Shown here: positions 25,663 through 53,305 of the stretch, piece by piece | How positions within the stretch are numbered: the first letter of the stretch is position 1 | Layout of the letters: each line of letters starts with the position of its first letter | Assembly: GCA_034190545.1 (NCBI GenBank) | Contig: JAXIOF010000036.1 | Coordinates: 1 to 64,000 of the forward strand | Length of the DNA: 64,000 nucleotides | Direction: 5' to 3' | Origin: Candidatus Afararchaeum irisae | GTDB lineage: Archaea; Halobacteriota; Halobacteria; Halobacteriales; Afararchaeaceae | Notes under the pieces: generated by a model | What the model saw: the letters and a program-made list of their open reading frames with translations, nothing else | What the model was told of the DNA's origin: nothing | Databases searched by the model: none | Translations under genes and position numbers: made by a program

Positions 25663-26883
25663 ATGGCAATTGTGGAGCTTCGCCGTACCGCCGTCGTGAA
25701 ACTCGACGTTGACGACGATGCTTACCAACTCCTTCAACAGACGATAGACCGCTTCAAACAGGCCTCTCAGATGGTTGCAGACGACGGCTGGAACGGCACA
25801 GAAGACGGCTACATAGTCACGTCGAAAACTGAGTTACACGACCGGACATACGACGAAGTACGCGAAGCGACCGACAAACTCAACGCTGACCTTGTGTGCG
25901 CCGCTCGGAATCGAGCCGCTGACGCACTCGATTCTTGTGCCGAGAAACGCAAAAATGGTGATAATCCCTCGAAACCACAGTTCACGTCTGGTTCCGTCGT
26001 CTACAACCTCAACGCGATTACCTACTACGAGGAGTACGCCACGCTTGCCACTGTGGACGGCCGTATCGAAGCCGGATATATCCTACCTGACGAGGATGTA
26101 CCACCGACAACCTATTTCTCCGAAGAATGGGAGAAACGTGAGGCGACACTGCATCACCGTGATGGCGATTACTACCTCCACATCGCTGTCGTGAAAGAGA
26201 CTGAGGAAGAGCCGGAAGATGCCGAGAACGGAACGGTTCTCGGCGTAGACTTGAACGTGGATGGTTACCTTGCCGTCACTTCGACCGGCGCGTTCCTCGG
26301 CAACGCAGATTACCTCAACCACAAGCGGCGAGAATACGAAAAGCGGCGTGGACAGATGCAACAGGCTGGAACTCGGTCGGCCCACCTGACGATGAAATCA
26401 CTCGGTGGGCGATTTGCCAACTGGAGTGAAGACTACCTGCACCGTGTTTCGAAGGCACTAGTGCAAGAGGCTCTCGCTCACGACTGTACGCATATCGCAT
26501 TTGAGAAGCTGAAACATATCCGCCAACGCATCTCGAACGCGAGCAAGTTCCAACAGTGGGCGTTCCGTCGTATCCAAGAGTACACCGAGTATAAAGCCGC
26601 AGAGTATGGTATTGCGGTCGAGAAAGTTGCGCCTCGGTACACCAGTCAACGGTGTAGTCACGTTGACTGTAGCTTCACGCACGACGACAACAGAGACGGC
26701 GACGAGTTTTGCTGTCTGAAGTGCGACCGCGAGTACCACGCCGACTACAACGCCGCGAAGAACATCGCTCGGAAACTACTCCAGAACTGGCACAAGTCTG
26801 GTTCTGGAGGGGCAACCAGTCACCTTGCCCTGAAGTCGGGGACGTTGAACGTGAACGGCATTTTCACGCCGACCACTGTTTAG
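25663..26883 (+). CDS. tnpB: TnpB RNA-guided nuclease (IS1341 type)
   Basis: TnpB proteins are RNA-guided DNA nucleases that keep their element at its site. The 406-residue protein is complete. RuvC residues are Asp196 (LGVDLNVDGY), Glu281 (HIAFEKLK) and Asp361 (HADYNAAKNIA). The zinc ribbon has Cys331, Cys336, a Cys at 350-351 and Cys354. All key residues are present, so the enzyme is probably active. The TATA-like ATTTATACT about 18-26 bases upstream suggests a near-leaderless transcript. A 7-bp hairpin spans the stop codon, the start of a hairpin run that is likely the guide RNA scaffold. Confidence 0.95.
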   Translation: MAIVELRRTAVVKLDVDDDAYQLLQQTIDRFKQASQMVADDGWNGTEDGYIVTSKTELHDRTYDEVREATDKLNADLVCAARNRAADALDSCAEKRKNGDNPSKPQFTSGSVVYNLNAITYYEEYATLATVDGRIEAGYILPDEDVPPTTYFSEEWEKREATLHHRDGDYYLHIAVVKETEEEPEDAENGTVLGVDLNVDGYLAVTSTGAFLGNADYLNHKRREYEKRRGQMQQAGTRSAHLTMKSLGGRFANWSEDYLHRVSKALVQEALAHDCTHIAFEKLKHIRQRISNASKFQQWAFRRIQEYTEYKAAEYGIAVEKVAPRYTSQRCSHVDCSFTHDDNRDGDEFCCLKCDREYHADYNAAKNIARKLLQNWHKSGSGGATSHLALKSGTLNVNGIFTPTTV

Positions 26884-27080
26884 TGGTCAGAACGGGAGTT
26901 GTGAAATCAGAGATTTCACAATCCACAAGATCGAAGATCTTGTGAAGTCCACCGACAAGCCCCGTCCCGAATTCTCCGAATTCGCTGGCTCGGAAATCGA
27001 AGATTTCCGAACGTCCCGAGAACTTCGTTCTCGCGGGCACGTCAAACAAAGTTTGACGAACGCCGTTCACGGCGGGCGTA
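26871..27080 (+). ncRNA. Run of eight hairpins after tnpB; likely guide (omega/re) RNA scaffold
   Basis: Seen hairpins: 26871-26888 (7 bp), 26899-26921 (10 bp, loop AGA), 26924-26944 (9 bp, loop GAA), 26968-26984 (7 bp, loop TCC), 26990-27010 (9 bp, loop GAA), 27017-27033 (7 bp, loop TTC), 27040-27058 (8 bp, loop AAA) and 27061-27074 (5 bp, loop TTCA). Six have perfect stems with three-base loops. TnpB guide RNAs are known to come from the 3' end of tnpB through the right end of the element, which is this place; the guide would start just after about 27085. The number of hairpins is far higher than I know for such RNAs. Confidence 0.6.
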
Positions 27081-27160: not shown

Positions 27161-27330
27161 ATGATACGTACCACATCAAACAGCAGAACCGCACACAGAT
27201 ATAGCTCGTTCGCCGTCAAGGAAGGTGTCATCTAAATAGATGAGCCGAGAGATGTCTACTACCGGAGTCCGCGCCGAGAAGCCTATTCTACGAAACTACA
27301 GCTACGGAATCTAAAGGAGAGCAGCGAGAG
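27161..27330 (+). pseudogene. Possible decayed small gene with its own promoter
   Basis: ATG at 27161 opens a frame (MIRTTSNSRTAHRYSSFAVK) that hits a stop at 27233. Beyond the stop the same frame stays open with protein-like content (IDEPRDVYYRSPRREAYSTK) until the structured repeat at 27333. A TATA-like TTTTTACG lies at about 27130-27137, 24-31 bases before the ATG. The simplest reading is an old gene with one nonsense change and a 3' end replaced by the repeat. No family is recognised, and it may be chance. Confidence 0.25.
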
Positions 27331-27332
27331 TT

Positions 27333-27450
27333 CCACGGGTTTCCGAAAACCGTAGGTTTTCGGCTTCGTGAATCATTGATTCACGGGCTACAAAATCAGA
27401 GATTTTGTAACTTTAGCAAATCTTCGATTTGCGAAACACCTGACCCGTGT
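27333..27450 (+). ncRNA. Structured repeat module A: closing stem with four hairpins
   Basis: A 118-base module. 27334-27340 (CACGGGT) pairs with 27443-27449 (ACCCGTG). Inside are four perfect hairpins: 27343-27363 (9 bp, loop GTA), 27367-27385 (8 bp, loop ATT), 27389-27409 (9 bp, loop AGA) and 27416-27432 (7 bp, loop TTC). Module B at 27873-27990 has the same layout with nearly identical linkers, while stems 1, 3 and 4 differ by paired changes. It has no reading frame. It may act as RNA or as folded DNA; the strand shown is the one that reads toward tauE. Confidence 0.75.
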
Positions 27451-27872
27451 TTTGCTGAACGTAGTGAAGCAAAGCAAGGAACGTTCGTGAATCTATGATT
27501 CACGAGCCTGCAAATCTCTGATTTGCAGACGTTAGTGACTGTGGGTGAATCGCGTCGAAGTATTTAACTAACCCTACGTTGTATAATGGTTGGAGGGTAA
27601 TTATAGGCATCACAAAACCCTGAAGCATGGTGAGTCTTGTCTTGTCGTGCCGTGAGTGAAGTGGCATACGCCTACGGACAGTATGCAACTGCATACGCTC
27701 GCACGGACTGTGCGAGTGATAAACCTTCGGCGGTGATAGAAACCCTATCACGGAAGGTGAAGCCTGTTCGGGTGTTTGTTCCTCCACACGACCATTCAAC
27801 ATGGAAGTGCAGGCGGAATTAAATTCCGTTGCTCCGTTACGCTGGCATAGTGTCAGAGGATAGATACGGAAG
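27451..27872 (+). ncRNA. Structured noncoding core between the two repeat modules
   Basis: Seen: a stem with tandem G-A mismatches just after module A; a three-way junction in which 27480-27484 pairs with 27529-27533 around hairpins 27485-27505 (9 bp, loop TAT) and 27508-27528 (9 bp, loop TCT); a TATA-like GTATTTAAC at about 27560-27568; stem 27698-27716 (7 bp); and a two-part helix with 27723-27728/27753-27758 outside 27733-27739/27745-27751. GTATGC at 27681-27686 can pair with GCATAC on either side (27664-27669 or 27691-27696). The core resembles no RNA class I know; RNase P and SRP motifs were looked for and not seen. Confidence 0.5.
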
Positions 27873-27990
27873 CCACGGGTTTCCGAAATCTGTGATTTCG
27901 GCTTCGTGAATCAATGATTCACGGGCTGTGAAATCGTAGATTTCACAACTTTAGCAAATCCTTCGGATTTGCGAAACACCCGACCCGTGG
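27873..27990 (+). ncRNA. Structured repeat module B: closing stem with four hairpins
   Basis: A 118-base copy of module A. 27873-27880 (CCACGGGT) pairs with 27983-27990 (ACCCGTGG). Hairpins: 27883-27901 (8 bp, loop TGT), 27905-27923 (8 bp, loop AAT), 27927-27947 (9 bp, loop GTA) and 27954-27972 (8 bp, loop TTC). It ends 19 bases before the tauE-like start, and its last bases can also form a 6-bp stem (GTGGTA with TACCAC) that ends one base before the start codon. This position would allow control of the permease gene if transcribed with it. Confidence 0.75.
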
Positions 27991-28009
27991 TACTTCACTC
28001 ACTACCACG

Positions 28010-52979: not shown

Positions 52980-53127
52980 TTCCCGGAGTATCTCGGAGTA
53001 TTACGGCTTCGGCTTCGGATTCGGATCTTATCAACAAACAGCAAACCCTGATGTATAGCCTTAATACACGGGCGATAATACGTGGACTGGATCGAAAGGT
53101 CCGAAGGTAAGCCAAATTCCCCGTATG

Positions 53128-53305
53128 GGGAGGATGGTCTAGTGGCAAAGTGGACTTGTCTCTAAGCAAAGCTTAGAGGCTAACGAAGCTCCGCTTCGTG
53201 ATGCCGTAGAGAATAAGACCCACCCATAGTAGGTGTCTGAGGTAGACTTCTCTAGAAGCCTCGGAGCTTGACTCCGAGGTAGTTCACACCTTATCTATCC
53301 TCTCA
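53128..53305 (+). ncRNA. Structured noncoding locus with tRNA-like ends
   Basis: The 364-base space between the ATPase and HalX genes contains several helices. GGGAGGA at 53128-53134 pairs with TCCTCTC at 53298-53304 (7 bp, one G-T), like an acceptor stem. TG and a D-arm-like GTCT-loop-GGAC (53137-53155, loop containing TGG) follow. Then come hairpins 53159-53179 (9 bp with one G-T, loop AAA), 53183-53199 (7 bp, loop TCC) and 53259-53279 (8 bp, five-base loop). A weak T-arm-like AGGT/ACCT lies at 53277-53291, but the TTCRA consensus and a normal anticodon arm are missing. It may be a decayed or intron-loaded tRNA, or another structured RNA. Confidence 0.45.

Follow-up and report, generated by a model that had tools for sequence, protein, structure and literature searches.

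Two 118-nt segments within the 64,000-nucleotide stretch of DNA analysed here (the window) resemble each other so closely in their predicted folds that they raise the question of what kind of genetic element they represent. The original prediction had taken the fold, rather than the sequence, to be what is kept between them, knew of no repeat class with this layout, and offered a new structured RNA, a mobile structured repeat or a folded DNA target as possible identities. Re-examination bore out the basic description of the two modules, A and B: each opens with a closing stem, CCACGGGT/ACCCGTG(G), followed by hairpins hp1 to hp4 in the same order, with three-base loops and nearly identical linkers. 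The differences on both arms of hp1, hp3 and hp4 were likewise recovered from the comparison of A with B. The hp1 stem spans 9 bp in A and 8 bp in B, hp4 of B has one C-G pair more than that of A, and in hp3 three adjacent base pairs differ on both arms, which could reflect one event and not three; the stem of hp2 is identical in the two modules, the sole difference being its loop. In a shuffle test of the fold, A and B yielded z-scores of -7.3 and -7.5, with 0 of 200 shuffles equally stable.

Elsewhere in the genome, on contig C29, a search recovered both modules a second time with their spacing unchanged. The identity of the two copies runs exactly from 27310 to 27998, starting with TCTAA and ending with TTCAC, and thus delimits an element of 684 bp plus its TCTAA target (Table 1). 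The modules lie in direct orientation, the two ends of the element differ (TCTAA versus TTCAC), and the palindrome of the element ends takes the form CCACGGGT/ACCCGTGG. Comparison of ends and flanks in the two copies revealed neither inverted terminal repeats nor a target duplication, and the terminal inverted repeats of a canonical transposon that typify MITEs are absent from the 689-bp element. Its sole ORF of at least 80 aa encodes 100 aa on the opposite strand (27500-27802) and shows no sign of a transposase; searches of the genome for Y1 and TnpB domains gave no match inside the element, and BLAST of the region against plasmids gave none either. Near-terminal palindromes at both ends, the lack of a transposase gene and ends related to the IS605 type are the features of palindrome-associated transposable elements (PATEs), which were described in Haloquadratum walsbyi (Dyall-Smith et al. 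2011, PMC3119063). The window also holds a second non-coding repeat of 264 bp (53027-53290), 99.6% identical to C2:8388-8651, which has twin hairpins of its own, ends in GAAGCCTCGGAGCTTGACTCCGAGGTAGTTCAC, and is probably another PATE.

Table 1. Features of the 689-bp repeat, in window coordinates
Feature	Position	Strand	Evidence or comparison
Whole 689-bp repeat (PATE), including target TCTAA, without transposase gene	27310..27998	+	100% identical to G000:C29:36037-36725, where neither flank is related
Left cleavage/target sequence C_L, TCTAA	27310..27314	+	Same sequence at same distance in relatives; empty site of a related element indicates insertion 3' of TCTAA
Left guide G_L, GAGTT, at foot of palindrome	27328..27332	+	Covaries with C_L
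Module A, near-terminal palindrome of the left end, bearing four apical hairpins	27333..27450	+	Two-hairpin form, found with A+B model, marks the left end in complete tnpA+tnpB elements
hp1 of A, conserved CCGAAAACC stem	27343..27363	+	Hairpin shared with the 72-nt left-end modules found in relatives
Extra 47-nt twin-hairpin unit, hp2+hp3	27367..27413	+	CTT on each side; 72-nt modules of relatives are without the unit and read GGCTTTCGCAAATC
hp4 of A, conserved GCAAATC stem	27416..27432	+	Also in 72-nt left-end modules of relatives
Further twin-hairpin unit in element interior, ACGTT-hp-GC-hp-ACGTT	27481..27533	+	
Conserved structured right-hand region (model R2), running into right palindrome	27763..27880	+	Match in 104/394 Halobacteriales genomes; double changes at 11/25 pairs
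Candidate right guide G_R, GGAAG	27868..27872	+	Paired with C_R TTCAC; in SHRA6, AAAAG with TTTAC
Module B, right near-terminal palindrome	27873..27990	+	Relatives have simple palindrome GGAAGCCACGGGTCACCCGACCCGTGGTAATTCAC at same place
96-nt hairpin cluster in right palindrome, between CCACGGGT and CACCCGACCCGTGG	27881..27976	+	Seen by comparison with relatives, whose palindromes are simple
Right cleavage sequence C_R, TTCAC, end of element	27994..27998	+	Identity of second copy stops exactly here

A search with the right half in 59 relatives recovered almost nothing beyond the genome of origin, and a covariance model was therefore used. Built from A and B, as the original prediction had proposed, this model matched in 40 of 394 genomes, and the prediction thus escaped the outcome on which it would have fallen, namely that there were no other copies anywhere. 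Most matches were to a 72-nt form made up of the outer stem, hp1 and hp4, without hp2 and hp3. Among 40 module loci that we examined, 9 had tnpA and 20 a relative of tnpB; at three of them (L083, L086, L123) a Y1 TnpA frame directly adjoins the module, and one such TnpA scored 134 bits to PF01797. The two-hairpin version of module A is hence the left end of complete Y1-transposase elements in other haloarchaea. Given that the 72-nt modules of the relatives sit beside tnpA or tnpB, module A can be read as an IS605-type left end to which hp2 and hp3 were added in the host as a 47-nt unit. At the right end, other Halobacteriales display a plain palindrome, GGAAGCC-ACGGGT-CACCCG-ACCCGT-GGTAATTCAC, found at several loci 3' of an apparent tnpB gene end, and module B corresponds to this plain palindrome with 96 nt in its tip. 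Across 23 distinct 72-nt modules, 4 of the 8 pairs of the outer stem are changed on both sides, as expected if the fold is kept and not the sequence; hp1 and hp4 do not follow this rule, their stems being nearly invariant while the loops alone vary. A pattern search of contigs left room for just 3-4 bases from CCGAAAAC to GTTTTCGG; most two-hairpin modules were missed for this reason. Matches of the model at C23 and C70 in the host's own genome proved to be other hairpin arrays and were rejected as end modules.

In the host's own genome we found no tnpA element that shares this palindrome and guide; of its three Y1 genes, one has a stop, and all three go with ends of other types. Since Y1 TnpA is absent from the 689-bp element and present in relatives with the same ends, the element is non-autonomous. 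In its 1.9 Mb this genome has 34 matches to TnpB (TNB domain) and only 3 Y1 TnpA genes. The window itself contains an IS1341-type tnpB at 25663-26883 (PF07282, 71.7 bits), with six three-base-loop hairpins in its 3' region (26880-27080).

In IS608 the cleavage site is recognised by TnpA only indirectly, through pairing with a guide located at the hairpin foot (PMC5934647, PMC6006769), the combinations being C_L TTAC with G_L AAAG and C_R TCAA with G_R GAAT (PMC5934647). The modules exhibit a comparable code: TCTAA occurs with GAGTT in 16 cases (the window included), TTCAA with GGATT in 9 and TCTAT with GAGTA in 2, the one exception being TCTAA with GGATT. The host's own tnpA elements combine TCTAC with GAGTG, so that the fifth base varies as A/T, T/A and C/G, and the order of pairing agrees with that of IS608. 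These counts come from a few clades and so represent few independent guide/target changes. On the right side we noted GGAAG with TTCAC, a combination that follows partly from the construction of the search pattern, and AAAAG with TTTAC in SHRA6.

Evidence for precise insertion comes from Halalkalirubrum salinum, which carries two elements of this family, each 403 bp long; their ends are identical and their flanks differ. When the flanks of one were joined and compared with the sister genome SHRA6, 144 of 150 positions were identical, in a gapless match, and the empty site in SHRA6 is intact through TCTAA|AACC, placing the insertion 3' of TCTAA. In a second test of this kind (L134) the flanks matched, but in the sister genome the sequence at the junction had diverged too far for a clean match. 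Insertion 3' of a fixed target without duplication is thus documented for the 403-bp relative, and the window copies are consistent with it.

On account of the second copy, the IS605-type ends, the tnpA-linked relatives and the empty site of a relative, we interpret modules A and B as near-terminal palindromes of a PATE. Judged from anatomy and relatives, it is close to certain that they are IS605-type palindromes of this kind. The fuller reading, in which a non-autonomous IS200/IS605-type element has them as its left and right palindromes and would move as IS608 does, is very probable. Haloarchaea are known to have IS605-type elements and PATEs with near-terminal palindromes (PMC3119063), and the statement that no repeat class has this layout does not hold. 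Two of the options offered, a mobile structured repeat and a folded DNA target, were essentially right, in that the modules appear to be terminal palindromes of a transposase-dependent element.

By analogy with the rest of the family, the ends are most likely read as folded single-stranded DNA by TnpA. As in IS608, each palindrome would fold when the element becomes single-stranded, for example on the lagging-strand template, and a Y1 (HUH) TnpA supplied in trans would bind the basal stem. At the base of that stem, the guide (GAGTT on the left, GGAAG on the right) would interact in parallel order with TCTAA and TTCAC, respectively, an interaction that we propose sets the position of the cut. 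The resulting single-stranded circle would then insert 3' of another TCTAA. The apical parts would have no role in target choice, and insertions there could be tolerated; from the two identical copies we infer that TnpA accepts a palindrome with 96-nt apical insertions. As judged from the relatives, what is new here is the extra 47-nt twin-hairpin unit in A and the whole cluster in B, where the relatives have a simple loop. The two-hairpin cluster of hp1 and hp4 would be old in the family and the twin-hairpin unit a later addition in the host genome, and the cluster in the right palindrome was probably acquired via exchange between the two similar ends.

The hairpins themselves are not confined to this element. 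We surveyed 394 kb of stretches from the host genome, chosen partly around known matches, so that the densities are not those of an unbiased genome sample. Perfect hairpins with a stem of at least 8 and a loop of exactly three numbered 64, as against 6-19 for each other loop length from 0 to 10, and 59 of the 64 have a C-G closing pair. A similar excess was seen in 100 kb of another haloarchaeon (G009), and none or hardly any in three others. Many of the host's three-base-loop hairpins lie in IS605-type ends or omegaRNA regions, with clusters in the palindromes of several families (tnpA elements on C31, C5 and C106; a second PATE on C40) and also in regions 3' of tnpB genes. The tnpA+tnpB element on C106 (L026) has a twin-hairpin unit in its left (ACCCCCGT/ACGGGGGT) and right (CCCGCG/CGCGGG) palindromes. 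Twin hairpins were further observed in front of, and at the start of, the sole Rfam match in the window, sot0042 (RF02656) at 37-182. The loops are often of GNA or AAA types. Closed by a C-G pair, such loops give DNA mini-hairpins of very high stability, which we regard only as a lead.

A pattern in which two base pairs were left free, TTCGNNAATCNNNGATTNNCGNG, matched 46 times in the genome and 0 times as a reversed control. Both free pairs are Watson-Crick in 42 of the 46, with about 3 expected, and six combinations occur; the 46 include identical copies of repeats, and among the 29 distinct sequences 25 are paired at both. The notion of a fold kept through changing sequence thus gains support from these dispersed hairpins. 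Eighteen of the 46 matches lie at most 1.5 kb from a TnpB domain, an area that makes up about 5% of the genome.

Paired changes of this kind might arise from a mutation process in which one arm templates the other, by template switching at palindromes, instead of from selection on the fold. We hold this to be a serious possibility, falling a little short of even chances. It would explain changes in blocks, such as the three adjacent pairs of hp3, and the insertion of whole base pairs in hp1 and hp4, as well as the presence of loops in both orientations (GCA and TGC, TTC and GAA). Paralogous arrays on C39 and C16 also fit, in that they differ by paired blocks while their linkers are identical. 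However, these arrays show some single-arm changes too, and single-sided changes persist in L005, L060 and 4 of the 46 pattern copies, so that any arm-to-arm correction is incomplete; the uniform three-base loop and C-G closing pair further suggest a structural preference. At L005, L006 and L060, arrays of about 10 hairpins lie between CCCCTTCCTCAA and AGTAGGGAGGGG, and these paralogues differ by whole units and paired changes.

The clusters could be insertions of a separate mobile repeat that attacks and inactivates the element, in the manner of SMR-A. SMR-A repeats, about 110 bp long, do insert into PATEs within the near-terminal palindromes (PMC3119063), the host's other element families also have clusters in their palindromes, and the extra unit has CTT repeats on both sides. 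Yet both identical copies bear clusters at both ends, and an element so stuffed is therefore still copied. Moreover, SMR-A of the same type are commonly more than 95% identical and have prominent inverted terminal repeats (PMC3119063), whereas the stems here are variable and clear inverted ends are lacking. The insertion part of this proposal is compatible with the PATE reading and the inactivation part is not; as a whole we regard it as rather unlikely. A broader and equally tentative idea is that the twin three-base-loop hairpins constitute a nested repeat class that grows in IS605-type elements, within their folded ends and RNA parts, while the host element remains mobile, the linkers are constant and the arms are jointly rewritten by arm-to-arm copying or by selection on folded single-stranded DNA, the interior perhaps serving as a stand-alone omegaRNA for TnpB in trans.

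That the modules act as RNA, as domains of a new non-coding or regulatory structured RNA, is very unlikely, despite their strong fold. In its favor, the interior between them is a conserved covarying structure, and haloarchaeal IS605 elements express omegaRNAs along with circular omegaRNA forms (PMC12558985). Against it, the modules coincide with transposon ends, an Rfam scan of the window found nothing at A or B, with no family reaching threshold there, and module B takes the four-hairpin fold with DNA parameters, under which each module forms its four hairpins, but not with RNA parameters, under which a pairing of hp1 with hp3 is best in B (-53.9 versus -51.6 kcal/mol for the four-hairpin fold). 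The interior region was modeled from an alignment of nine sequences, the ninth being that of the window with its 96-nt cluster left out. It occurs in 52 of 95 genera, in some cases directly behind a left-end module (G332:C36, G269:C14), and 27763-27880 had no Rfam match at E-values up to 1. At 30 loci with this region tnpA is present in none and a tnpB relative in only two, for which reason we rejected the interior as the omegaRNA of an adjacent tnpB. An omegaRNA would be expected at the 3' end of a tnpB gene, and neither of the two tnpB relatives is seen directly in front of the region corresponding to 27763-27990. The wide spread of the interior, with tnpA absent and tnpB relatives in 2 of 30 loci, points to a PATE family that is widespread and whose interior is structured.

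Chance or an assembly artefact can be dismissed as extremely improbable since, although the genome is a draft of 117 contigs, the repeat lies on two contigs with continuous unrelated flanks, homologues exist in 40 genomes, and the folds have z below -7.

A known mechanism would thus account for a striking pair of folds. Haloarchaeal PATEs, whose mobilisation has been puzzling in Haloquadratum, acquire a testable tie to Y1 transposases with a readable guide/target code. The two copies suggest that transposon ends are copied despite large branched insertions, contrary to the idea of inactivation, and the hairpins with paired changes offer many natural replicates for separating selection from a mutation process.

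Several known systems bear comparison with this element. REP/REPIN sequences with their TnpA_REP (RAYT) likewise involve dispersed hairpins tied to Y1 transposases, but REPs are largely intergenic with a GTAG/GTGG guide (PMC6006769), whereas the hairpins here are often within IS605-type elements. The element shares with IS608 and the IS200/IS605 family (Y1 TnpA, peel-and-paste) the one-strand hairpins near both ends, the cleavage sequences matched by a guide at the hairpin foot in parallel order, and insertion 3' of a short target; it differs in that the window element encodes no Y1 TnpA, and that the end hairpins of about 20-25 nt in IS608 and ISDra2 (PMC6006769) are replaced by branched palindromes of 72-118 nt, with TCTAA as target. 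SMR-A of Haloquadratum, compared by its published description, is the nearest precedent for the palindrome insertions, sharing their location inside near-terminal palindromes of PATEs and IS605-type elements. Its length of about 110 bp, prominent inverted repeats and constancy of sequence do not fit: relative to the two-hairpin form, the insertion in A measures 47 nt, and relative to the simple palindrome that in B measures 96 nt, the units being of about 47 nt with two hairpins whose stems vary. The closest likeness is to the Haloquadratum PATEs, which also combine near-terminal palindromes and ends related to the IS605 type with the lack of inverted terminal repeats, target duplication and transposase gene; relative to their description, the present element is distinguished by apical three-base-loop hairpins at both ends and a conserved structured interior.
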